From contig CANFCK010000010.1 in assembly GCA_947445035.1 (NCBI GenBank), forward strand, positions 62,001-126,000: 64,000 nt of DNA, in the 5' to 3' direction. The translations under genes were made by a program, and so were the position numbers. This DNA comes from Deltaproteobacteria bacterium (GTDB taxonomy: Bacteria > Myxococcota_A > UBA796 > SXON01). Under the pieces are notes generated by a model. It worked only from the letters and a program-made list of their open reading frames with translations. It was not told where the DNA came from and made no database searches. Positions 656 to 16,776 of the stretch are shown here, in pieces (the first letter of the stretch is position 1; each line of letters starts with the position of its first letter).

Positions 656-1672
656 GTGTCCGCTCCCATCTTCATCATCGGCACGGAGCGATCGGGGTCG
701 AACCTCTTGCGCCTGATCCTGGATGCGCACCCCAACATCGTGGTGCCGCATCCCCCACACGTCATGCGCTACTTCGGCCCACTGGAGGCCGGGTACGGCG
801 ACCTCGCCGAGCCCGCGCGCTTTGGCGCGCTGGTGGCCGACGTTCTGGCGCTGGTGGCCTCGCACATCCATCCCTGGCCGTGGGTCCCGAGCGCGGAGGC
901 CGTGCTCGCCGCCGCCCCGGAGCGCTCGCTTTTCGGCGTCTACCTGGGCCTCCACGACGTGGTCCGCGGGCACGCGGGCAAAGCGCGCTGGGGCTGCAAG
1001 AGCACGTTCATGGTCGATCACGTCGACCTCGTGCGCGCCGCCCGCCCCGACGCCCGCTTCTTGTGGTTGATGCGTGACGCGCGGGACGTCGCCGCGTCGG
1101 CGAGGGAGTCCGTCTTCTCCTCGTTTGCGCCCGCTTTCTCGGCGCGTCTGTGGAGCGAGCAGCAGGCCAAGGCGCTCGCCGCCGAGGCGGGGGGCGGCGT
1201 CCTCCGCGTCCCCTATGAGTCCCTCGTGGCCGAGCCGGAAGCGCAGGTGCGGCGGATCTGCGAGTTTCTCGAAGAAGAGTTCGACCCCGCGATGCTGCGC
1301 TGGTTCGAGGGCGAGGAAGCGACCAAGTCGGCCTCCCTCTCGGAGTCCTGGAAGAACACCGCCACGCCGATGCAGACCAGCCGCCTTGCCCGTTACCGCA
1401 AGGACCTCAGCCCCGAGGACATCGCTGTTGTCGAGGAGATCGCGGGTCCGATGTTGGTCGCGTTGGACTACGCGCTGGACCTTCCGCCCCGCCCCACCCC
1501 GACCGGGCTCGCCGCTCGGTTGCGGGAGTTGCGCTGGTCGTTGAGCGATGAATGGTCGCGATTGCGAGTCGAGTGGCGATCCTTGTGGAAGGACAAGAAC
1601 GTGCGCCGGCGGTGGCGTCGTGAGTGGCTGATGACGACGATTCGATGGCGGCTGGTGCTCCGTGGCCGCTGA
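656..1672 (+). CDS. Sulfotransferase-family protein (338 aa)
   Basis: Predicted PAPS-dependent sulfotransferase, which would transfer sulfate from 3'-phosphoadenosine-5'-phosphosulfate to an unknown acceptor. The N-terminal strand and P-loop-like motif FIIGTERSGSNLLRLIL (about residues 6-22) is the 5'-phosphosulfate-binding loop of this family. Further in, FLWLMRDARDVAASARES (about 136-153) is the second PAPS-contact region with the R-D-x-R-D pattern. The C-terminal 60 residues are rich in Arg and Trp, with no clear domain. Translation starts at GTG 656. The last 11 bases overlap the next gene, a second sulfotransferase, so the two are probably co-transcribed and may act on the same substrate. 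The acceptor cannot be told from sequence. Confidence 0.85.
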   Translation: MSAPIFIIGTERSGSNLLRLILDAHPNIVVPHPPHVMRYFGPLEAGYGDLAEPARFGALVADVLALVASHIHPWPWVPSAEAVLAAAPERSLFGVYLGLHDVVRGHAGKARWGCKSTFMVDHVDLVRAARPDARFLWLMRDARDVAASARESVFSSFAPAFSARLWSEQQAKALAAEAGGGVLRVPYESLVAEPEAQVRRICEFLEEEFDPAMLRWFEGEEATKSASLSESWKNTATPMQTSRLARYRKDLSPEDIAVVEEIAGPMLVALDYALDLPPRPTPTGLAARLRELRWSLSDEWSRLRVEWRSLWKDKNVRRRWRREWLMTTIRWRLVLRGR

Positions 1673-2924
1673 TCTCGCCGCGGTCCGCGAACGCGTCGCC
1701 CGGTTGCGGAGCGGCCTCCCCGCGCTCGACGTCGCTGCGGCGGCCCGCGAAGTCGTCGTGATCGCATCCAGCTCGCGCGGCGGGAGCTCCATCTTCGCCG
1801 AGGTTTTGCGGCGGAGTCCATCCCTGCTCCACTGCCGCGCCGAGGTGAACCCGCAGCTCCGGCTTTTCGGCTGCGAGGGCGACGACGACGACACCGTCCC
1901 CGGGGCGCATCCCGTCCCACCCGGCCTGGGACTCGCGCTCGGCGCGGACTGCGGCCGACCCACCGATCGGCTCGACGATGACGCCGCGGTCGAGGCGTTT
2001 GCCCGCGAGATCGCCGCCCGCCTCGTGCTCCAGTGGCCGGAGCTCCCCATCCAACTCGAGCCGGTGCTCGCGGATGTCCGCACGTCCCTTGCGCCGGGCA
2101 GCTTCGGCGATGCCCAGGCCTTCTATGCGAGGTTCTTCACCCGCCTCGCCGCCCGGTGGCCAAGTTTCCATCCCGGCGCCTACGACCTGGACCGCCGACG
2201 CATGGGCGGCATCGGGCCGACGGCGCCTTTCGTACCTGTGGGGCCAATCGAGGAGCCCCCCTACGTGCTGCCCCTGCCCTGGAGGCACGCAACGCCCCAC
2301 GAGCTCGCCACCCAGCCGCTGATCATCAAGACGCCGAGCAACGTCTACCGGCTTGCGTGGTTGCGCCGCCTCTTTCCGAATGCGCGGGTGAGGGTGCTGC
2401 ACCTCACGCGCAACGCCGCGGCCAGCATAAACGGCCTGTACGATGGGTGGCGCTTTCCCGGCTTTCATAGCCACGAGGTCGGCAATCTTGCCATCGCCGG
2501 CTACTCCGACACCACGCCCGGAGGCGAGCGCTGGTGGAAGTTCGACCGGCCCCCCGGATGGCGAGACTACACCCATTCGCCCTTAGAGCAGGTTTGCGCC
2601 TACCAATGGACGTCCGCCCATCGAGCCGTGCTCGCCGATGCGGCCGCCGATTCGTTCTCGCTCCGGTTCGAGGACGTCCTCGGGTCGCGACAGGCGCAGG
2701 ACGATGCCATGGGTCGGCTGTCAGACTGGCTCGGCGTGCCAGTGCATGACGAGCTTTCGGGGGTGCTGGCCAAGGGACTCCCCTTGGTCATGGCCACCGA
2801 ACAACCCCGCCATCGCCGCTGGTTTGCACGGATGGAGATGCTGGGCCCGGTCTGCGCGCTGCCCGAGGTGCGCGCGGTGCTCGACGCGCTGGGGTACGTC
2901 GGCGATCCGACGGGGTGGGAATAG
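1662..2924 (+). CDS. Second sulfotransferase-like protein (420 aa)
   Basis: The start codon is GTG at 1662, inside the last codons of the preceding sulfotransferase, which suggests translational coupling. After a 27-residue helix, VVIASSSRGGSSIFAEVL (about 31-48) matches the 5'-phosphosulfate-binding loop with S-S-R-G-G-S-S in place of the G-x-x-R-S-G-S-x of its neighbour. LHLTRNAAASINGLYDGW (about 247-264) corresponds to the second PAPS region, with the R-N pair replacing R-D. ISLRFEDVLG-like sequence near residue 338 is the usual late strand of the fold. The protein is longer than common bacterial sulfotransferases because of a 120-residue insert between the two motifs. The family call is good. 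Substrate and exact reaction are unknown. Confidence 0.75.
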   Translation: MAADLAAVRERVARLRSGLPALDVAAAAREVVVIASSSRGGSSIFAEVLRRSPSLLHCRAEVNPQLRLFGCEGDDDDTVPGAHPVPPGLGLALGADCGRPTDRLDDDAAVEAFAREIAARLVLQWPELPIQLEPVLADVRTSLAPGSFGDAQAFYARFFTRLAARWPSFHPGAYDLDRRRMGGIGPTAPFVPVGPIEEPPYVLPLPWRHATPHELATQPLIIKTPSNVYRLAWLRRLFPNARVRVLHLTRNAAASINGLYDGWRFPGFHSHEVGNLAIAGYSDTTPGGERWWKFDRPPGWRDYTHSPLEQVCAYQWTSAHRAVLADAAADSFSLRFEDVLGSRQAQDDAMGRLSDWLGVPVHDELSGVLAKGLPLVMATEQPRHRRWFARMEMLGPVCALPEVRAVLDALGYVGDPTGWE

Positions 2925-2956
2925 GGAACGCAGGTGGGCGCGGACTATCAGGAAAC

Positions 2957-2985
2957 GGGGGAAGACGCTCGCCGCGTCCTCCCCC
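2957..2985. terminator. GC-rich hairpin after the sulfotransferase pair
   Basis: Bases 2957-2968 pair with 2974-2985 in a 12-bp stem that has a single A-C mismatch and the five-base loop TCGCC. It starts 33 bases after the sulfotransferase stop at 2924 and precedes the 3' end of the convergent Uma2 gene at 3103, so it could end transcription from either side. No T-tract follows on either strand, which weakens the call as an intrinsic terminator. The rest of the 178-base gap holds nothing I recognise. Confidence 0.4.
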
Positions 2986-3102
2986 TACCGTCGCCTACCC
3001 TCCGGCCTCCAAGCTACGCTTTCCGGCCTGCGGCGGCGGGCGGCATGGGTAACTCACCGGCGCCGCCGTCCGCTCCCGCGGCCTCGAAACCACAAGCGAC
3101 GC

Positions 3103-3813
3103 TCACATCGCGTCGGGATCGAGCCCCAGCGCCCTGAGCCGCGCGGCCATCGCTTCGGCCTTCGCGCGGGCCGCATCACGCTCGGCGGCGGCCGCATCAC
3201 GCTCGGCGGCGGCCGCATCACGCTCGGCGACCGCCGCATCGCGTAGCTCCTCCATCTCGCGAAGCGTACGAAAAGGGGTCCCGTCGGGGCGGAACATGTG
3301 AAGGACGTTGTTTTTCACCTCAAACCGAACGCCGATGATCGGCGAGGTGAACCCCTCGCTGACGTCGACCGGCTCCAGGCCGTCGCCCACCCGGATGAAC
3401 GCCGCAAAGGTACGTCGCACCTGATCCCATGAGTAGAACTCCCGGACCCCGTGCCGATCGTAAAAGCGCAGCTTCGCGAATTCTTTCGGGAATGTGGAGT
3501 TTGGCGACCACCACTCGAAGACCACCGTCAGCGGGACAGCGCCCTCTTCCCATTGTCGGTACGAGCCGCGGGGACCCTTGGGACGACCGACCGCCACATA
3601 CACATCGGGCGCGGCCCGCACTTCGGGGTGGCCCTCAACCGGGTACCAGAGGTGATCGCCGGCCACGAAGTCGTCGCGAACGGCGTCGAGGTTTGCCTGC
3701 ACCAACTGGATGAAGGCGAACTGTTCGGTATTGTCGGCCATGGGCTCCCCGTCTGAGTCCGGGTAGACCACCGGGCCGGCCGGAGCGTGCAACAAGGCGG
3801 CGGTGGGGGACAT
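3103..3813 (-). CDS. Uma2-family (DUF820) PD-(D/E)XK protein with coiled-coil tail
   Basis: The 236-residue protein starts at ATG 3813. Its first 180 residues match the Uma2 family, a widespread restriction-endonuclease-fold group of unknown role. Seen here are the family hallmarks VVYPDSDGEPMADN near the start, APDVYVAVGRPKG (active-site Asp strand) and VVFEWWSPNST with the Glu of the second catalytic strand, then a K-x-x-F-Y-D-R-H-G-V-x-E-F-Y strand. After residue 180 comes a short hinge and four near-identical RDAAxAE heptads that should form a coiled coil, encoded by a 21-base tandem repeat. An internal ATG at 3741 would drop the conserved DSDG segment, so the upstream start is preferred. 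The gene is divergent from the amidinohydrolase gene 22 bases away. Confidence 0.85.
   Translation of the reverse strand: MSPTAALLHAPAGPVVYPDSDGEPMADNTEQFAFIQLVQANLDAVRDDFVAGDHLWYPVEGHPEVRAAPDVYVAVGRPKGPRGSYRQWEEGAVPLTVVFEWWSPNSTFPKEFAKLRFYDRHGVREFYSWDQVRRTFAAFIRVGDGLEPVDVSEGFTSPIIGVRFEVKNNVLHMFRPDGTPFRTLREMEELRDAAVAERDAAAAERDAAAAERDAARAKAEAMAARLRALGLDPDAM
3170..3232. repeat. 21-bp tandem repeat, three copies, inside the Uma2 gene
   Basis: Three head-to-tail copies of a 21-base unit (3170-3190, 3191-3211, 3212-3232), beginning GCCGCATCACGCTCGG, are nearly identical. Only the last copy differs at its final bases. A fourth degenerate unit follows. Each unit encodes seven residues, exactly one coiled-coil heptad, so copy number changes would lengthen or shorten the coiled coil without breaking the frame. 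Confidence 0.85.
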
Positions 3814-3835
3814 TGGGATAGTGTACTCCGCCACG

Positions 3836-4768
3836 ATGCTCCCCTCTACTCTCAAGGGTCCCGGCTGGCTGGATCGCACCGGCTCCCACGCCGCGGACGT
3901 CGCCGCCGGCTCACATTGGGCGCCGTTTCGGGTCTCCAACAGCGTAGGCCGCCTCCGCGCCGTGCTGTTGACGTGGCCCGGAGACGAACTGGCATACGAC
4001 GGAGCCCCCGCCGACTGGCTGATGGCAGCGCGCCCAGACCTCACGGTCATGCGTGAGGAGGCGACCAACATCGCCAATTTCTACGCGTCGGTCGGCGCCG
4101 CGGTGCACTGGATCCGCCCCGCCGCTGCGGCGCCTCCGAACCTCGTCTTCGCGTGCGACCTGTTCGTGATGACGCCGGAAGGTGCCATCCTCGGGCGGAT
4201 GGGGGCGGGACAGCGCGCGGGCGAAGAGCGTTGGGCCGCCCGTGCGCTGCTCGACGCTGGCGTGCCGATCCTGGCGACGCCACGGGGGACCGCGACACTG
4301 GAAGGCGCCGACGTGCTGTGGGTGCGTCCGGACCTGGTCCTGGTCGGGCTCGGCAACCGGACGAATGAAGCGGGGTTTCTGACGGTCGGCCGGGTGCTCG
4401 CGGACCAGGGCGTGCGCTGCGTCGGCGTGCAGCTGCCCCCGACGGTGCAACACCTCCTGGGCAGCATCAACTTCGTCGACGACGACCTGGCCGTGGCCTA
4501 CGATGCCACCCCGTCGATGCGCGCGGCGCTCGCCGACGCCGGAGTGCGCACCCTCGATTTTGTCGATGTGGCCGAGGTGACGGAGGCGCGCGCGCTCAAC
4601 TTCGTGGCAGTGAATCGTCGTGAGATCGTGATGCCGGCGCGGGCGCCCCACACCCGCGCCCGACTCGAAGCCGCGGGGGTGCGCTGCCATGAGCTGGTGG
4701 TCGACCAGTACCTTGGCGCCGAGGGCGCTCTGGGCTGCCTCACCGGCATCCTGTCCCGCGACGACTGA
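3836..4768 (+). CDS. Amidinotransferase/DDAH-family protein (310 aa)
   Basis: Member of the pentein-fold guanidine-modifying family that contains arginine deiminase and dimethylarginine dimethylaminohydrolase. Visible signatures are MREEATNIANFYASVG (about 72-87), TLEGADVLWVRPDLVLVG with the E-x-A-D pair, GLGNRTNEAGF (family G-x-S-x-R-T-N-x-x-G strand), a His in the VQHLLGSINFVDDDLAV strand and a C-terminal Cys in GALGCLTGIL, the expected position of the nucleophile. Length fits DDAH-like enzymes. The reading frame stays open to 3803, but ATG 3836 leaves room for a promoter facing the divergent Uma2 gene and is preferred. The substrate is unknown: free arginine, methylarginine and agmatine-like compounds are all possible. 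Confidence 0.8.
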   Translation: MLPSTLKGPGWLDRTGSHAADVAAGSHWAPFRVSNSVGRLRAVLLTWPGDELAYDGAPADWLMAARPDLTVMREEATNIANFYASVGAAVHWIRPAAAAPPNLVFACDLFVMTPEGAILGRMGAGQRAGEERWAARALLDAGVPILATPRGTATLEGADVLWVRPDLVLVGLGNRTNEAGFLTVGRVLADQGVRCVGVQLPPTVQHLLGSINFVDDDLAVAYDATPSMRAALADAGVRTLDFVDVAEVTEARALNFVAVNRREIVMPARAPHTRARLEAAGVRCHELVVDQYLGAEGALGCLTGILSRDD

Positions 4769-4807: not shown

Positions 4808-6208
4808 ATGACCGCTACGCTCTTGTACGCCCTGCTCGCCTGCAACACCGACGCCCCGGCTCCCAAACTGCAGGCCCCCGTCGCCGCCCCCCTTGGGCCG
4901 AGCTTCGATTACGCGGCCGAGCAGAAAAGCCTCAACGTGATCCTCGTGAGCATGGACTCGCTGCGTGCCGACCACACCGGTCTGGGCGGCGGCTCGTTCA
5001 CGCCCAACCTCGACGCCTTCCAGAACGAGGCCGTTGCGTTCAAAAACGCCACGGCGGCCGCCCCGTGGACCGTACCCTCCCACATGTCCATCTTCACCGG
5101 CCGCTGGCCAACCCACCACGGCGTCGTCAACAAGCTCATTCCGGATCCGGCCGGTGGAAAGGAGCTGATCTTCGACAAGCTCGAGGACTCGATTCCGCTC
5201 TTGCCCGACACGCTGATCGCCAATGGATGGGAAGCGGTCGGCTTCACCGGAGGCGCGGGCGTGTCCGGAAAGTTCGGCTACAACCGAGGCTTTACCAGCT
5301 ATCTCGACGATAAGACCTTCGCCGGCATGGACTACAGCGGCCCCCCGGCCATGCAGTGGCTCACCGACCACAAAGACGGCCACTTCTTCATGTTCTTCCA
5401 CGGCTACGACACCCACGGCCAACATCCCGTCATCAAGACGGTCAAAGAGATCGACCCCACCTACGCCGGCACCCTGGATGGAAGCATCGAAGAGCAGGCC
5501 AAGCTGCGCGAGGCGGGCCTGGCCCAGATTGTCAACCCCGGGGACCCGCCCAAGGGCGACGTGTCCCCCGAGGACGCGGCGCTTTTGCTGAAGGTCTACC
5601 AGGAGAAGGTGCGCGAGGCCGACGGGCGCCTCGGCCTGTTCTTCGATCGCGTCAAGGAGCTGGGCCTCTACGACAAGAGCATCATCGTGGTGCTGGCCGA
5701 CCATGGCGAAGAGTTCATGGAGCACGGGTACGTCGATCACGGCGCTACGCTCTGCGAACACCAGCTGCACGTGCCGCTGATGATCCGGTTCCCCAAGGGC
5801 GAGGGTGCCCGCGTGGTGGACACGCCGGTCCGCACCATCGACACCTTCCCGACAATCTTCGATGCGCTGGGGCTTCAGACCCCCGCGAACATCGACGGCA
5901 AGAGTCTCATCCCACTTTTGCGAGGAGAGGCAACGGACCTCCCCATCCACGCCGAGTCGGACTACCGACTTTTCGTGCATCTCCGGTCGAGCCGGGTCGG
6001 CGACAAAAAGCTCATCCTCGACCTCGAAGACGGGCAGCGCTCGCTCTACGATCTGTCGGCAGACCCCGGGGAAAAAACCGACCTTTCCACGACCGACGCG
6101 CGCACCACCTACGAGGTAGAACAGGACGTGCGCGGGTGGATGGGCACCATGAAGAGTGACCCCAATGCGTTCCTCGGGGTGAAGGAAGAACACATCAAGC
6201 TCTTCTGA
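4808..6208 (+). CDS. Sulfatase-fold lipoprotein with a Thr nucleophile position
   Basis: A 466-residue alkaline-phosphatase-superfamily hydrolase. The first residues end in LLYALLAC, a lipobox with Cys12, so it should be a lipoprotein acting outside the cytoplasm. VILVSMDSLRADHTG carries the first metal-binding Asp (D50). WTVPSHMSIFTGRWP follows, and VVLADHGEEFMEHG carries the later metal-binding Asp-His. At the position where type I sulfatases have the Cys or Ser that becomes formylglycine (C/S-x-P-S-R), this protein has T88-V-P-S-H, so the usual maturation cannot occur. Thr nucleophiles are known in phosphotransferase members of the fold. Phosphodiester or phosphoethanolamine-type chemistry is therefore as likely as sulfate hydrolysis. 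It lies just upstream of the radical SAM operon on the same strand. Confidence 0.85.
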   Translation: MTATLLYALLACNTDAPAPKLQAPVAAPLGPSFDYAAEQKSLNVILVSMDSLRADHTGLGGGSFTPNLDAFQNEAVAFKNATAAAPWTVPSHMSIFTGRWPTHHGVVNKLIPDPAGGKELIFDKLEDSIPLLPDTLIANGWEAVGFTGGAGVSGKFGYNRGFTSYLDDKTFAGMDYSGPPAMQWLTDHKDGHFFMFFHGYDTHGQHPVIKTVKEIDPTYAGTLDGSIEEQAKLREAGLAQIVNPGDPPKGDVSPEDAALLLKVYQEKVREADGRLGLFFDRVKELGLYDKSIIVVLADHGEEFMEHGYVDHGATLCEHQLHVPLMIRFPKGEGARVVDTPVRTIDTFPTIFDALGLQTPANIDGKSLIPLLRGEATDLPIHAESDYRLFVHLRSSRVGDKKLILDLEDGQRSLYDLSADPGEKTDLSTTDARTTYEVEQDVRGWMGTMKSDPNAFLGVKEEHIKLF

Positions 6209-6246: not shown

Positions 6247-6275
6247 TTGACGGGAGGGCGCCTATCCGGTACCCT
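6247..6275 (+). promoter_or_regulatory. Sigma-70-type promoter for the radical SAM / GyrB-methyltransferase operon
   Basis: TTGACG (6247-6252) and TACCCT (6270-6275) are separated by exactly 17 bases, close to the housekeeping consensus. Transcription would begin near 6282, leaving a short leader before ATG 6301. It also argues against using the upstream in-frame TTG at 6247 as the translation start. Confidence 0.5.
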
Positions 6276-6300
6276 AGCCATACTCGTCCCAGGACCCTTG

Positions 6301-7917
6301 ATGGCGTACACCCCGTCGCTCGATCCCAGCCTGTATGCGGTCGCCAATGGCCGCACCGATCAGGAGCTGATGGACCTGATGGCCCAGCAGGATCGCAGTC
6401 CCGTCACGACGGACTCCCGCAAGCCACGCGTGGCCCTCGTCGTAGGACCGTCGCCGTTTTCGATGCCGCGCGGCTGGGAGTTCTTCCTCACCTCGCCCTA
6501 TGAAGGCGTCAGCTACATCGCGACCGTGCTGCACAACGCCGGCTACCCGGTGCGCATCATCGACGTGCGCTACGACCCGACCCCGTTGCAGACCGCGCAC
6601 CGGCAGATCCTTGAGGGCTGCGACGTCCTGGGCCTGGCCACCTATGAAGACTGCTACCCCTTCCTCGAACAGCTGATCCGCGAGGTCAAGTCCAGCAAGC
6701 CGCGGCTGCCGATCATCGTCGGCGGATCGCTCGTCACCTCCGTCCCTCACGTCTTCATGCGCGAAACGCAGGTCGACGTCGCGGTCATCAGTGAAGGCGA
6801 GTTGACCATACTCGAGGTCATGGAAGCGTTCACGGCGGGGCTGTGGAGCAGCCGCCTCCCCGAGATCAAGGGCATCTGGTACCGGGATGCGAAGGGTGGC
6901 GTGCATGCGACCGCGCCCCGCGGTCAGATGCCGAACCTCGACTCATTACCGACGATGAACCTGGACCTCTGGCCCCAAGCGCGTGACCCGCGCGGCTTGC
7001 AGCCTCAGATCATCGCCAGCTACAGCCGCGGCTGCAAGATGGACTGTTCTTTCTGCTACCGGACGACGCCGCAGGAACGGGTGAAGTCCCCCGAGAAGCT
7101 CGAACGTGAGCTGACGACGTACAAACAGAAGTACGGCATCGAGTTCGTCTTCTTCGTCGACCTCACCTTCACCGCGCACAAGAAGCAGACGCTCCAGTAC
7201 CTCGACGTCATCCGCGAACAGGACCTCCGCTGGACCTGCCTGACCCGCAACGCCGACGTCGACGCCGAAGTCGGCAAGGCGATGGGCACCGCCGGCTGCG
7301 ACATCGCGCTGTTCGGCGTCGAGACATTGAGCGCAGCCGCCCTGAAGAGCTCCCGCAAAGGGAGCACGGAGAACCTCGTCTACAAGGCGCAGAAAGCCAC
7401 ATGGGATGGCGGTGTGCGCTACGGCGGGTTGACCATCGTCGGCCTGCCCGACGAAAGCGACTCGTCGCTTGACCATATGTGCGAATGGGCCGAAGAGAAC
7501 CAGCACATCACGCGGGTGAAGTACCTTTCGGCGATGCCGGGCACCACCGTCTACCGGGACTCGCTCAAGAGCGGCGCGATCAAAGACGAAGTGGAGCACT
7601 TGCGTTGGTTGGCGGTCGAACAAGCGCTCCATCGCGACGAGTACATCAACTACAACGCCCTGCCCGACGAGACGATGCGCGGCGCGTACAAGCGGTTGTA
7701 CGACTCTTACCAGCCCGGCCCGGTCATGGAGTTCAAGCACTTCCCTGAGCATTTCGCCTACTTCGATCCCGAGCCCACGACCGAGTGGCGGGCCGAGTTC
7801 TCGTCCGCCGGTGGACACATGGACCCCTGCGCGATGGAGTACAAGGGGCTCTACAGCGCCGCTGAGGGCGTGACGCTGACGCGCGTGAATCAGGGCGAGT
7901 TCACGGTTCAGGTCTGA
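6301..7917 (+). CDS. B12-binding radical SAM enzyme (538 aa)
   Basis: Radical SAM protein with an N-terminal cobalamin-binding Rossmann domain (about residues 25-180; strands VALVVGPSP, VRIIDVRYD, VLGLATYED, LPIIVGGSLV and VISEGELTI). The catalytic 4Fe-4S motif follows, C245-x3-C249-x2-C252 within SRGCKMDCSFCYR. FVFFVDLTF and DIALFGVETLSAAALKSSRKG are later barrel strands seen in this class. Such enzymes catalyse methylations, ring rearrangements or other radical steps on natural products, lipids or cofactors. ATG 6301 lies just after a good promoter. The gene runs into a rubrerythrin-like gene 13 bases later and then the GyrB-methyltransferase fusion, which suggests a shared pathway. The substrate is unknown. 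Confidence 0.88.
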   Translation: MAYTPSLDPSLYAVANGRTDQELMDLMAQQDRSPVTTDSRKPRVALVVGPSPFSMPRGWEFFLTSPYEGVSYIATVLHNAGYPVRIIDVRYDPTPLQTAHRQILEGCDVLGLATYEDCYPFLEQLIREVKSSKPRLPIIVGGSLVTSVPHVFMRETQVDVAVISEGELTILEVMEAFTAGLWSSRLPEIKGIWYRDAKGGVHATAPRGQMPNLDSLPTMNLDLWPQARDPRGLQPQIIASYSRGCKMDCSFCYRTTPQERVKSPEKLERELTTYKQKYGIEFVFFVDLTFTAHKKQTLQYLDVIREQDLRWTCLTRNADVDAEVGKAMGTAGCDIALFGVETLSAAALKSSRKGSTENLVYKAQKATWDGGVRYGGLTIVGLPDESDSSLDHMCEWAEENQHITRVKYLSAMPGTTVYRDSLKSGAIKDEVEHLRWLAVEQALHRDEYINYNALPDETMRGAYKRLYDSYQPGPVMEFKHFPEHFAYFDPEPTTEWRAEFSSAGGHMDPCAMEYKGLYSAAEGVTLTRVNQGEFTVQV

Positions 7918-7930
7918 GTTACAGCTAAGC

Positions 7931-8383
7931 GTGGCCGAATCGACCCTCCCGGCAGCGCGGTACACGCCGCCCAAGCTCGACGACACCCTCACCCGGGAAC
8001 ACCTCGAGGCGGCGCTGCGTGACGAGGCGGTGGCGGCCGTCGAGGCCTCGTGGTTCGCGCGGATCGCGGAGATCGAGGGCGAACCCGAGGCCGCCCGCGC
8101 CCTGCGGGAGATCGCCGAACAACACAACCTCAACGCGCGCGGCACGCTGGACCTTCTCCTGCGCGCGCGGGAGCCGCTGACCGGGCGGGTGGTGGGCGCC
8201 ACCGCCCAGAACATCGCCGCGTTGGAGCGCTTCTACGCTGAGGACGCGCTGTCCGAGGCGCGGCGGGCGTCAGCGGCGCGGCGCGAGGGGTTCTCCGACA
8301 TCGGCAGCTGGTTTGAAAGCGTGGGCAGGCTACGCGCGGCCCACGCGGCCCGCCTCGCGACGATTCGGACCGGGACCGACTGA
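7931..8383 (+). CDS. Degenerate rubrerythrin/ferritin-like protein (150 aa)
   Basis: Starts at GTG 7931, 13 bases after the radical SAM gene. The sequence fits the four-helix rubrerythrin pattern: AALRDEAVAAVEASWFARIAE (first helix), EGEPEAARALREIAEQ (second) and, in the C-terminal half, ARREGFSDIGSWFESVGRLRAAHAARL, which mirrors the family's EGF-x-x-[VI]-x-x-WFE-x-[LV]-x-[RK]-x-E-x-x-H pattern. By my alignment several diiron ligands are gone. The helix-2 His position is Asn (NLNA), the first Glu of the third-helix pair is Phe, and the Glu three residues before the last His is Arg. No rubredoxin domain is present. It may be a structural or partner protein rather than a peroxidase. Its stop overlaps the next start by one base. 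Confidence 0.55.
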   Translation: MAESTLPAARYTPPKLDDTLTREHLEAALRDEAVAAVEASWFARIAEIEGEPEAARALREIAEQHNLNARGTLDLLLRAREPLTGRVVGATAQNIAALERFYAEDALSEARRASAARREGFSDIGSWFESVGRLRAAHAARLATIRTGTD

Positions 8384-10332
8384 TGGCTGACCCTCGGGAA
8401 ACGGTCACCCGCTACGATGCTGACAGCATCGTGGTTCTGGAGGGGTTGCAAGCGGTGCGGATGCGCCCGGCGATGTACGTCGGCAGCACCGGCTCCGAAG
8501 GCGTGATGCAGCTGGTCGTGGAGGTGCTGCAGAACTCGCTGGACGAAGCGCTGGCGGGCCACGCGGCGCGCATCGAAGCGTCGGTCGACGCCGATGGCAA
8601 CTGGGTGATCGCGGACAACGGGCGCGGGATCCCCATCGGTCAGCACAGCTCGGGCCGGCCGATCCCCGAGGTGGTGGTCACTGAACTCCACGCCGGGGGA
8701 AAGTTCAAGGAAGGCGCGTACCGTCTGCCTGGGGGCCTCCACGGGGTGGGCCTGACCTGCGTGAACGCCCTGTCGTCGAGTTTTGAGTTGGAAGTGCGCA
8801 GAGGCGGCGGGCGGTGGCTGGGGCGGTGGGCCGCTGGCGCGGCCGTGGCGCCGTTTCAGCGGGTCGGGGATGCCGCGGACGTGGGCACCATCGTGCGCTT
8901 CACTCCCGACGCCGCCATCTTCGGTGGGGCCGCCGCCGACGCCGCAGCGGTAGAGCGCTGGCTGCGGGCTCAGAGTTGGCTCACGTCGGGGCTGTCCTGC
9001 AGCTTCCGCCGACCCGGGGGCGAGGTTCGGTTCTCCTCGGATGAGGGTCTCGGCGGCTTTGCACGCTGGCTCAGCGACGGACAGGAATGGGTACACCCTG
9101 ACCCCGTGGTCATTTCTGGCGAGGCCGTCGGCATTCAGGTCGATGCGGCGCTTTTGTGGACCCGCGCCTTCGCCGAGCACGTGGACTGTTTCGTCAACCA
9201 CGTGCACACGCCGCTGGGTGGCGCGCACACCGACGGGCTCCGCGCCGCAATTGGCCACGCCCTGACCCGCTACGCCCGCGACGCGGGACTCATCGATGCC
9301 ACGGAGCCGCTGCAGGGTAGCGACACCATGGAAGGGTTGATGGCGGTGCTGTCGGTGCGGATGCGCGACCCGCACTTCGAGGGCCAGACCAAGACCCGCC
9401 TGCTGGATCCAATCGCGGGCCAGGCCGTCGAAAAGGCCGTCGGCATCGCGCTGGCAGATTGGTTGCGCGCGCATCCGGCAGACGCTGCAGCGGTGGTCGG
9501 GCGGGCCATAGAAGCCGGCCGGGCCAGGATGGCGTCCCGGCGTGCCAGCGAGCGCGCCCGCTACGAACGCGTCGAGCACCTGGTCGACAAGGACATCTAC
9601 CGCCAGCAGTTCGGCATCCGCAGCAAGAACTGGCACACCTCGGCCGACTGGATCACCAACGCCGGACTGCTCGGTCTGCACGGCGGCTCCAGCCAGCTCG
9701 CCGAAGACGCGGTCGTGCTGGATGTCTGTTGCGGCTCCGGTGTGGTCGGCAACAGCTTCCGTGGAAAAGTCGGCAAGATCATCGGGCTGGACCTGACGCC
9801 GGAGATGGTGGCGCTGTCGCGCACCCGACTGGACGAGGTGGTCCAGGGGGACGTGTACGACATCCCCTTCCCCGATGCCACCTTCGACGGGGTGTGCAAT
9901 CGCGAGGTGCTGCACCTGCTTCCCCAGCCCGAACGTCCGCTCTCCGAGATATTCCGTGTCCTGAAGCCCGGGGGGCAGTTCGTCGTGGGCCAGTGGGTGC
10001 CCTTCTCCGCGATCGATGGCCCGTGGATGTTCCAGGTGGTGAAGAAGAAGCAGCCGCTCTTCGTGAACAACCTCTACGACGAAGACATGCGCGCGCTCCT
10101 TGCCCAGGCCGGCTTCGAACGCCTCACGACGCAGGAATACCTCCAGTGGGAAGACATCGACAACTGGATCGCCACCTGGGAAACACCCCAGCTTCACCGG
10201 CACCAGATTCGCGACCTGTACCACCACTGCCCGGCCGAAGTGCGCGCGGTGCACCCCTTCGAGATCTCGCCCGCCGGCGCCATCCGAGACTGTTGGCGCT
10301 GGGTGATCTACTCGGTGTTCAAGCCGGGGTAG
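8383..10332 (+). CDS. Fusion: GyrB/ParE-type GHKL ATPase + class I SAM methyltransferase
   Basis: One uninterrupted 649-residue frame joins two unrelated modules. Residues 1-395 are a complete GyrB-like N-terminal half. The catalytic Glu47 and Asn51 lie in VVEVLQNSLDEALAG, Asp78 in ADNGRGIP, the ATP-lid glycines in GGLHGVG (117-123), and a transducer domain follows with the QTK loop at 335-337. The TOPRIM nuclease and C-terminal domains of a topoisomerase are absent. From about residue 400 the protein is a SAM methyltransferase with motif I DVCCGSG (447-453), an Asp after IIGL for the ribose, and FRVLKPGGQFVVGQW. The enzyme cannot cleave DNA, but could bind ATP, dimerise and methylate. ATG overlaps the preceding stop, so it is coupled to the rubrerythrin-like gene. 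The 3' end overlaps the convergent pirin gene by 14 bases. The domain calls are firm; the function is unknown. Confidence 0.85.
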   Translation: MADPRETVTRYDADSIVVLEGLQAVRMRPAMYVGSTGSEGVMQLVVEVLQNSLDEALAGHAARIEASVDADGNWVIADNGRGIPIGQHSSGRPIPEVVVTELHAGGKFKEGAYRLPGGLHGVGLTCVNALSSSFELEVRRGGGRWLGRWAAGAAVAPFQRVGDAADVGTIVRFTPDAAIFGGAAADAAAVERWLRAQSWLTSGLSCSFRRPGGEVRFSSDEGLGGFARWLSDGQEWVHPDPVVISGEAVGIQVDAALLWTRAFAEHVDCFVNHVHTPLGGAHTDGLRAAIGHALTRYARDAGLIDATEPLQGSDTMEGLMAVLSVRMRDPHFEGQTKTRLLDPIAGQAVEKAVGIALADWLRAHPADAAAVVGRAIEAGRARMASRRASERARYERVEHLVDKDIYRQQFGIRSKNWHTSADWITNAGLLGLHGGSSQLAEDAVVLDVCCGSGVVGNSFRGKVGKIIGLDLTPEMVALSRTRLDEVVQGDVYDIPFPDATFDGVCNREVLHLLPQPERPLSEIFRVLKPGGQFVVGQWVPFSAIDGPWMFQVVKKKQPLFVNNLYDEDMRALLAQAGFERLTTQEYLQWEDIDNWIATWETPQLHRHQIRDLYHHCPAEVRAVHPFEISPAGAIRDCWRWVIYSVFKPG

Positions 10333-15417: not shown

Positions 15418-16776
15418 CTACGAGATGCGAGTGGAGTATGCCTCGAAATCGGTGACGAGGCGACGCAGTCGGGTTCTCGACTCGGGCTCGTGGCTCAGCT
15501 CTTCCACAGGATCGACGCCGGGGGGCAGCGGGCGGAACTCCGGTTCACCGGCGAGCGTCGAGACCTGGGCGCCCAGCCAATGACCGTCGCGACGCAAGAA
15601 CCGATCGTTCCCGTTGACGAAGGCGAGCTGGTTGTACTTGTAGCGCGGTAACGTCTTGCCCTGGGAGTCGTACCAGGCGCTCTCCAGGACGCACTCGCTG
15701 CGCTCGGGCGCGCGCACGATGCTGGGCGGAACGTCCGCTCCGGCGGCTTCAAGCACCGCGCCATGAACGTCCCGCGCGCTCACGGGACGCTCCACGATCT
15801 TCGACGCGCCGCCGGGCTCGAGCCAGAAGAGCGGGACACGGTTGCCGCCATCGGTGACGTTGTTGAAGTGGTAGCTCCACCCCATCTCGCCGAAGCAGTC
15901 GCCGTGATCGGAGCCCACCATCACCGTCGTGTCGCGACCCTCATGAAGCTCGCACACAAAATCGTCGACTTGACCGGCGATGCGCTCCCAAGCGATGCGC
16001 TGTCGGGACTTGATGCGCCCCATCGTCCCCGGACCGAAGGGCTGCTTCCCCGTGGTCATGAAGGTCTGATTCACGAGGTGGTACAGCGCGACGACCTCGG
16101 TCACCGCATCCAGTCCGCGCCCGAGCGGCTCGAAGATCGGGGCGACGTGGTAGGGAAAGTGCGTCTCCATCAGGTTGATGAACAAGAAGGTGGGCTGGTT
16201 CTTTCGTTCGTTGTGGGCGAGGATGCGCCGGGCCCGGTCGAAGATGTCCGCCACCGTGTCCTGGAGCCAGACCTTGCCGGCCTCGATGTCCTCCGACAAC
16301 TTGCCGCGAATCCAATCGGTCGACAGGACCTTCTTGCGAAGCCGCGGCTTGCCCACGAGCACCATCGCTTCGTGGAGTTTGCGGTGCTGCGCCGGCACCT
16401 CCTTCCAGATGCGTACCACCTCGTCAAAGCCTCGATCCAGGCCGAATATGTCGGTCGTCGCCACATTGGCGGTGACCTGATGGGTAGAGTACCCCCGCGC
16501 CCGCAGCCGCTCGGCGAGCGTCGGCACCGAAGGATCGAGGCCCTGGCGGCTTTGGGTGTCCGCGCCGTGTTCATGAGGGAGGAGCCCGGTGAACATCGAG
16601 GCCGTGGCCGGGAGCGTCCAACAGCCGGCGCTTCGGGCCCCCGTAAACTGTGTGGCATGGCGAACAACGTAGGGCAGACGAGGACCGTCACCGCCGTACA
16701 CGGAGTCCCATCGCAGGGAATCCGCTACGAGCATCACGATGGCAGCAGGCCGAGGCAAGGTCGCGAGCGCTATCAC
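15418..16776 (-). CDS. Second sulfatase-fold protein, no signal peptide (452 aa)
   Basis: Alkaline-phosphatase-superfamily hydrolase. IVMLVADSLRWDSVYGG carries the first metal Asp, WTLPATASMFTGLLPHEHG the nucleophile region and VMVGSDHGDCFGEMGW the Asp-His pair. At the maturation site it has T54-L-P-A-T, so neither Cys nor Ser is available for formylglycine, as in the lipoprotein at 4808. C52 lies two residues earlier and is not in the motif register. No signal or membrane segment is seen, so it may act in the cytoplasm or be exported otherwise. GTG 16776 keeps the first beta strand; ATG 16734 would remove part of it. It is divergent from the NAGPA-type gene 14 bases away. Confidence 0.82.
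   Translation of the reverse strand: MIALATLPRPAAIVMLVADSLRWDSVYGGDGPRLPYVVRHATQFTGARSAGCWTLPATASMFTGLLPHEHGADTQSRQGLDPSVPTLAERLRARGYSTHQVTANVATTDIFGLDRGFDEVVRIWKEVPAQHRKLHEAMVLVGKPRLRKKVLSTDWIRGKLSEDIEAGKVWLQDTVADIFDRARRILAHNERKNQPTFLFINLMETHFPYHVAPIFEPLGRGLDAVTEVVALYHLVNQTFMTTGKQPFGPGTMGRIKSRQRIAWERIAGQVDDFVCELHEGRDTTVMVGSDHGDCFGEMGWSYHFNNVTDGGNRVPLFWLEPGGASKIVERPVSARDVHGAVLEAAGADVPPSIVRAPERSECVLESAWYDSQGKTLPRYKYNQLAFVNGNDRFLRRDGHWLGAQVSTLAGEPEFRPLPPGVDPVEELSHEPESRTRLRRLVTDFEAYSTRIS

Follow-up and report, generated by a model that had tools for sequence, protein, structure and literature searches.

What does a protein do that begins as the ATP-operated clamp of DNA gyrase and ends as a methyltransferase? 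The gene that raises this question lies in a 64,000-nucleotide stretch of a Deltaproteobacteria bacterium genome (assembly GCA_947445035.1, contig CANFCK010000010.1, positions 62,001 to 126,000 of the forward strand), hereafter the window. Its product, the fusion, joins the GHKL ATPase and transducer domains of a GyrB-type subunit to a class I S-adenosylmethionine (SAM) methyltransferase. With a probability of roughly 0.45, it acts as an ATP-dependent dimerising clamp that pairs and gates two methyltransferase domains on a pathway intermediate.

Architecture and recurrence of the fusion

The gene is read in one uninterrupted frame, as the first-pass annotation had stated, and its ATG shares one base with the TGA of the upstream rubrerythrin-like gene (7931..8383). 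The GyrB half, GHKL and transducer domains together, covers residues ~10-392 and the methyltransferase residues ~400-649:

8383..10332, plus strand: GyrB-methyltransferase fusion gene, a single frame of 649 amino acids with an ATG start and the stop TAG at 10330-10332
8413..9042, plus strand: GHKL ATPase domain with N-terminal arm, residues ~11-220, including Y11, I16, E47, N51, D78, R81, K107 and GGLHGVG
9043..9558, plus strand: transducer domain, including QTK 335-337 and a long C-terminal helix (365-392)
9559..9588, plus strand: short linker of ~10 residues from the transducer helix to the methyltransferase, mostly inside a low-confidence stretch of the structural model (388-400)
9589..10329, plus strand: class I SAM methyltransferase, with DVCCGSG 447-453, D470 and RVLKPGG 525-531

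The residues singled out by the annotation are all where it had placed them: E47, N51, D78, GGLHGVG at 117-123, QTK at 335-337 and DVCCGSG from D447. Conservation also extends into the C-terminal part of the methyltransferase (KKKQPL 554-559, W589, HPF 624-626, WRW 638-640). The Pfam matches of the window protein are HATPase_c (39-176, 2.3e-10), DNA_gyraseB (222-390, 5.5e-39) and Methyltransf_11 (446-535, 4.9e-22), the last above its cut-off and, with the SAM motifs and a Rossmann fold, typical of a class I methyltransferase. The GHKL ATPase and the transducer with QTK are those of a type IIA topoisomerase; a Pfam search of both halves gave no match to TOPRIM (EGDSA, DxD), and the ~10-residue linker runs straight into the methyltransferase, which bears out the claim that the latter takes the place of TOPRIM. 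The same three domain types are matched in all 21 aligned fusion proteins, and TOPRIM is absent from the 14 Pfam families found across them. The NCBIfam gyrB/parE models, 625-803 positions long, align only over about their first 400 positions, and their score cut-offs are missed (TIGR01059, 350.6 versus 882.4 bits; TIGR01058, 293.8 versus 899.95; TIGR01055, 237.1 versus 723.35).

Searched against experimental structures, the GyrB half hits 43-kDa fragments of GyrB (lowest E 1.1e-82, 6enh); for the methyltransferase half, BH2331 (1.6e-13) and YcgJ (9.9e-12) lead 42 distinct sequences. The predicted model of the full-length protein has a mean predicted local distance difference test score (pLDDT) of 84.9 and a predicted template modelling score (pTM) of 0.58; its first half resembles GyrB43 with template modelling (TM) scores, by target length, of 0.91 (1ei1) and 0.92 (best-ranked 3zkb chain). 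A separate model of the methyltransferase half (pLDDT 78.9; five models, 78.9 to 51.0) matches 1vl5 and 1xxl with best-chain TM scores of 0.69-0.75, and its structural matches are headed by BH2331 and YcgJ, followed mostly by small-molecule methyltransferases.

When 186 genomes of relatives were searched with the linker and methyltransferase as query (E <= 1e-15), 34 gave matches; the fusion gene is the best match in 23 of them, the window genome included, and the other 11 hold separate methyltransferases only. All 23 fusion genomes belong to one order of Myxococcota-like metagenome-assembled genomes (MAGs), in families f1, f2, f4 and f6. Full-length open reading frames (ORFs) are present in 21 (the window and 20 relatives). 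In one further genome (G037) the ORF is cut by the contig end, yet it reads from query residue 134, within GHKL, through the methyltransferase. In the last (G009) the gene meets contig ends: the methyltransferase part begins at one contig edge, and another contig has at its edge an ORF of 359 amino acids, placed in the same family by clustering, with the rubrerythrin-like, radical-SAM and sulfatase genes next to it. The fusion thus stands as one ORF in 22 of 23 genomes, and the search for other proteins with a GyrB N-terminal part, a methyltransferase and no TOPRIM led to 22 other genomes, all of the same order.

Residues were counted in an alignment of the 21 fusions with 46 GyrB/ParE proteins of the order, using E. 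coli GyrB numbers that we take to correspond to the fusion positions; likewise, Tyr5 and Ile10 presumably belong to the arm, and His38 presumably assists the general base. The equivalents of Tyr5, Ile10, Glu42, Asn46, Glu50, Asp73, Lys103, Arg136, Thr165, Gln335 and Lys337 are invariant in 21/21 fusions (in window numbering, Y11 and I16 of the arm, E47, N51, D78, K107, Q335 and K337 among them), and that of Arg76 (R81 in the window) is kept in 20. The ATP-contact set (Glu42, Asn46, Asp73, Lys103, Gln335, Lys337) is therefore complete in every fusion. According to the passages cited, Asn46, Lys103, Gln335 and Lys337 of E. coli GyrB hold the ATP triphosphate (PMC4388272), Lys337, Gln335 and Glu42 are located at the ATP phosphate (PMC4159350), and the ATPase activity of a Lys337Gln mutant is undetectable (PMC2845627). 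Among 98 columns conserved in GyrB/ParE, 72 are kept in at least 90% of the 21 fusions, 81 in at least half, and 17 are lost.

Both halves are under purifying selection. Between the window gene and 11 of its 20 full-length relatives, the ratio of nonsynonymous to synonymous substitution rates (dN/dS) is 0.109-0.255 for GHKL, 0.052-0.222 for the transducer, 0.020-0.156 for the methyltransferase and 0-0.374 for the junction stretch 388-445, values that are rough since several dS exceed 1; canonical GyrB, compared between two of these genomes, gives 0.051 (0.0377/0.744). Recurrence and selection agree with the earlier view that the gene is no debris, and they rule out, with hardly any residual probability, an assembly chimera or a decaying pseudogene. 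Most named carriers being MAGs, an artefact had to be considered; however, 21 relatives at 47-94% identity read through the junction in a single ORF, which argues against a missing TOPRIM segment as well as a chimeric contig, no internal stop occurs among the fusion matches listed, and dN/dS stays below 0.4 in all segments tested.

The fusion has not displaced the cellular enzymes. PF00204 matches in 39 genomes of the order number three or four in each of 17 fusion genomes and one or two in the other 22; the 17 keep an ordinary GyrB and a ParE-like protein in addition to the fusion (one, G018, adds a fragment), and replacement of either is ruled out for these 39 genomes. A tree built from 67 ATPase halves (21 fusions, 30 GyrB, 16 ParE) places the fusions near GyrB but not within the GyrB group of the order, and at a long distance from ParE. 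A ParE origin is less likely, as ParE forms its own group (stem 1.13, 100/100). The fusion halves do not form one group (2 changes), the unstable L026 joining GyrB with support of 95/70, unstarred, and support at the deep fork is low (85/60); a single origin of the fusions thus appears likely rather than proven.

A scan of public records by short peptide patterns, which reaches close relatives only, returned 13 loci with 66-99% identity to the query part. Named carrier records are Deltaproteobacteria, Myxococcales or proteobacterium, and isolate names such as Baikal and Erken point to lakes; the carriers are uncultured and apparently freshwater bacteria. Two carrier MAG records (L047, L050) are named Bifidobacterium breve and Klebsiella pneumoniae, names unfit for these contigs. 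A phage, plasmid or viral origin was rejected: 427 plasmid and 14 phage records hold only methyltransferase-level matches below 60% identity (about 27-29% in the 15 rows listed), and no relative was found on viral contigs by the close-relative peptide patterns. A defence system was also dismissed, PADLOC reporting nothing beyond a hit in the methyltransferase region (mad2, 54 bits) and a weak hit to radical SAM (PDC-M51A, 34 bits).

Neighbouring genes and their distribution

The best functional clue is one that the first-pass annotation omitted: the fusion is the last gene of a row and co-occurs with radical-SAM, DDAH-like and sulfotransferase genes. In the window, it follows these genes in the order given, and a pirin gene on the other strand comes next:

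656..1672, plus strand: sulfotransferase (Sulfotransfer_3, Pfam)
1662..2924, plus strand: second sulfotransferase-like protein, scoring 26.7 bits where the Pfam cut-off is 27
3803..4768, plus strand: DDAH/arginine-deiminase-like enzyme (family match; E167, H217 and C312 conserved)
4808..6208, plus strand: sulfatase/alkaline-phosphatase-superfamily protein with, by eye, a lipobox-like N-terminus and Thr in place of the Cys/Ser nucleophile of sulfatases
6247..7917, plus strand: B12-binding radical-SAM enzyme, a distant HpnJ/ApyD/BchE relative with CxxxCxxC intact
7931..8383, plus strand: rubrerythrin/sulerythrin-like protein, most diiron ligands lost (by eye)

Between the second sulfotransferase and the DDAH-like gene, nearly 900 bases (2925-3802) hold no assignable gene; a second, divergent sulfatase-superfamily gene lies near the operon at 15418-16776 on the minus strand.

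In 22 stretches from relatives, some of them short, the rubrerythrin-like gene was found in 19, the radical-SAM and sulfatase-like genes in 16 each, the DDAH-like gene in 8 and the sulfotransferases in 7 and 6. At the level of genomes, the DDAH-like gene is present in 25 of the order's 63 genomes (all within the 186-genome search, judging by their handle numbers), and exactly these 25 also have the second sulfotransferase: every one of the 23 fusion genomes, together with G001 (76% complete) and G045 (78% complete). The radical-SAM gene is found at E <= 1e-80 in 23 of 377 genomes of the phylum, 22 fusion genomes and G001; G037, whose membership in the 377-genome set is not shown, is not among the matches. 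The match in G001 stops five bases short of the contig end, beyond which the next genes would be expected. The hypergeometric value, 3e-15, takes no account of shared descent or incompleteness. This shared distribution of DDAH-like, sulfotransferase-like and radical-SAM genes indicates that the fusion belongs to a specialised pathway.

The neighbours differ in how far their functional residues are kept. CxxxCxxC is present in 24/24 radical-SAM rows (one gene counted twice), and the three DDAH residues, which we take to be catalytic, in 19 of 20 rows, the remaining one being gapped. In the rubrerythrin-like protein, at what are presumably the diiron ligand positions, reading by eye shows the first E-x-x-H pair in a single row of 15 and the second pair in no row. 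The gene of this protein is conserved beside the fusion despite this loss; the protein may serve as a scaffold or a partner instead of acting as a peroxidase. The lipoprotein-like sulfatase-superfamily gene (4808-6208) has Thr at the nucleophile position, in the sequence WTVPSHMSIFTGR, presumably as in some phospho-transferring members of the superfamily, which suggests an exported transfer step; the motif (WT[VL]P) is readable in 10 of the 24 family rows printed, some of the remainder being other paralogues.

Upstream of the window, a carbamoyltransferase-family gene (L051:17098-18852, minus strand; Pfam match for the window genome's copy) stands beside the sulfotransferase genes. With it lies a gene for an uncharacterised protein (L051:18856-19767), and homologues adjoin the sulfotransferase genes in G003, G005, G006, G007 and G049. 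Unfused kin of the methyltransferase occur at or near the fusion (L020:795-1541; also in G024, G043, G049, G031, G037, G014 and G038), and the window genome has one on another contig (C38). Near pathway genes, L148:14956-17349 and L149:8962-11322 join EamA transporter repeats to Band-7/SPFH (Pfam match for the first only). Gene calling by GC content at third codon positions (GC3) is crude, so that starts and short genes may be wrong and family counts are lower bounds; one GC3-based family clustering puts fused and solo methyltransferases together.

A putative ATP-gated dimer and its rivals

The fusion may work in the following manner: the GHKL and transducer clamp of a GyrB-type paralogue, joined to a YcgJ-like methyltransferase, would form a dedicated pathway enzyme. 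Two chains would bind ATP, swap their N-terminal arms and close like GyrB43; each clamp arm ends in a long transducer helix, on which a methyltransferase domain would sit, and ATP binding followed by slow hydrolysis may bring the two methyltransferase domains together, open them or regulate their access to substrate. The substrate would most likely be an intermediate of the pathway of the neighbouring genes (DDAH-like enzyme, two sulfotransferase-like proteins, B12 radical-SAM enzyme, lipoprotein sulfatase-like hydrolase). The N-terminal arm and the QTK loop are presumably useful only in the ATP-closed state; their retention thus speaks for a functioning clamp and against a mere binding domain, and because their residues are no more variable than those of the ATP site, closure of a dimer driven by ATP is the simplest reading. 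Since the transducer helix leads to the methyltransferase, where in gyrase it leads to TOPRIM, closure should bring the methyltransferase domains together, and the partner genes and the methyltransferase type indicate a small-molecule substrate. A slightly more tentative generalisation is that a gyrase-type ATP clamp has left DNA topology to become the allosteric switch of a methyltransferase in specialised biosynthesis within an uncultured, Myxococcota-like order, an ATP-gated methyltransferase dimer.

Several observations weigh against this view. Position 43, the His38 equivalent and Gln in the window, is Gln in 12 fusions, Asn in 3, Arg in 1 and the His expected of a GyrB-kind ATPase in 5 of 21 only; position 50, the Asp45 equivalent and likewise Gln in the window, is Gln in 19 and Asp in 2. 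In the 46 GyrB/ParE proteins of the order, position 43 is His in all and position 50 Asp in 45 (X in the other). ATP hydrolysis may therefore be weak or absent, and the first-pass statement that the ATPase residues all look intact, which holds for the ATP-contact residues, is too strong for these two positions. The GHKL half also evolves faster than the methyltransferase half, and faster than canonical GyrB as compared in one genome pair. LahSB, a peptide methyltransferase, is among the structural matches, so that a protein or peptide substrate may come into play; the model, with pLDDT below 50 at residues 388-400, places the halves relative to each other without confidence; and the rubrerythrin-like family (E <= 1e-15) is found in 37 of 63 genomes of the order and is not fusion-specific, its weaker matches (about 33-38% identity) being mostly paralogues elsewhere.

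The two lost residues and the faster change of the GHKL half would suit a pseudo-ATPase scaffold, in which the GyrB half binds ATP and serves as a permanent dimer or a docking site for pathway partners, with little hydrolysis and no gating of the methyltransferase; the adjoining rubrerythrin-like protein, likewise without most metal ligands, means that scaffold-like reuse would not be isolated. A pure scaffold, however, has no need of the general-base glutamate (E47) or of Q335 and K337, invariant in 21/21, and this explanation is rather unlikely. Somewhat more doubtful still is a role in self-protection, the pathway making a GyrB-directed inhibitor that the GyrB half captures or carries and the methyltransferase modifies. 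A GyrB copy among biosynthesis genes is a usual sign of target-based self-resistance, and residues of the ATP and inhibitor site (D78, R81 in 20/21, R140, T169) are conserved; milder hints are the carbamoyltransferase-family gene by sulfotransferase genes in six genomes (the window's and five relatives), novobiocin carrying a carbamoyl group, and the presence of CouO, which we take to be a coumarin-antibiotic enzyme, among the 42 methyltransferase structure matches (3.1e-4, a much weaker match than YcgJ or BH2331). The arm residues and QTK are invariant too, however, although a decoy that captures an ATP-site drug could do without them, and no aminocoumarin gene is named among the Pfam/NCBIfam family matches. 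Self-resistance of this kind relies on a complete, drug-insensitive GyrB, whereas the fusion, lacking TOPRIM, cannot replace gyrase and has ordinary Arg136 and Thr165 equivalents; that canonical GyrBs keep the same two residues in 30/30 (13 from fusion genomes) counts mildly in the same direction.

A DNA-directed methyltransferase, with the clamp closing on a duplex as the GyrB N-gate does on the T-segment and the fused domain methylating it, is improbable. The clamp architecture is kept, and the position at or near E. coli Arg286, presumably a residue of the DNA cavity, carries Arg or Lys in 18 of the 21 fusions; on the other hand, the methyltransferase half resembles YcgJ/UbiE and its listed Pfam and NCBIfam matches include no DNA-methyltransferase family, the transducer is slightly more acidic (mean net charge -5.4 versus -3.9 and -3.0 for GyrB/ParE), and the neighbours resemble small-molecule enzymes. 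The ATP-gated methyltransferase dimer, if true, would show the conserved clamp, with a methyltransferase replacing the DNA-cleaving part, to be a portable regulatory module; the fusion would then offer a small system for testing how a clamp couples to a downstream activity without DNA, and it points to a pathway not yet characterised (DDAH-like enzyme, sulfotransferases, B12 radical SAM) with a product to seek. The joining of clamp and methyltransferase, in genomes that have a set of biosynthesis genes in common, suggests that a component of the DNA-handling machinery was recruited to govern small-molecule reactions.

Comparison with known systems

No fusion of GyrB or another GHKL ATPase to a methyltransferase was found in the open-licence literature, in keeping with the first-pass remark that no described protein of this kind was known to it. 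To our knowledge, the GyrB N-gate, a textbook ATP clamp, is known as a topoisomerase part. GHKL ATPases joined to other domains, such as MORC, are used outside topoisomerases, as the cited passage describes (PMC11879086). They belong to GHKL families other than that of the fusion. We know of no methyltransferase fusion of MORC-type ATPases.

The closest printed precedent found is Arabidopsis GYRB3, likewise a GyrB fragment without TOPRIM reused in another protein; as far as the cited passages describe it, this plant protein comprises the transducer only, with Gln at the Lys337 position and a SANT domain, and neither ATPase nor methyltransferase (PMC2845627). A shortened planctomycete GyrB paralogue was rejected as a parallel, since it differs between TOPRIM and tail according to the passage cited (PMC8567305). 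PDB 3cwv, deposited as 'DNA gyrase, B subunit, truncated', shares the GyrB-like ATPase region; its chain of 369 residues has no methyltransferase and matches the fusion more weakly (1.7e-21). We take its source to be Myxococcus.

The C-terminal half finds its best sequence and fold matches in the class I SAM methyltransferases YcgJ and BH2331 (PDB 1xxl, 1vl5), which stand alone, whereas that of the fusion is joined to a GyrB clamp. The N-terminal half shares the full GHKL and transducer fold, the ATP-contact residues and the arm residues with the 43-kDa ATPase fragment of GyrB/ParE (PDB 1ei1, 3zkb, 6enh) and is 36-44% identical to GyrB/ParE of the order over the shared half; in contrast to these, it lacks TOPRIM and the later GyrB domains, is followed by the methyltransferase and has the His38 and Asp45 equivalents mostly replaced. 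Both halves thus belong to known families, and, as far as searched, the combination, the retained clamp and the linkage to a pathway are new.

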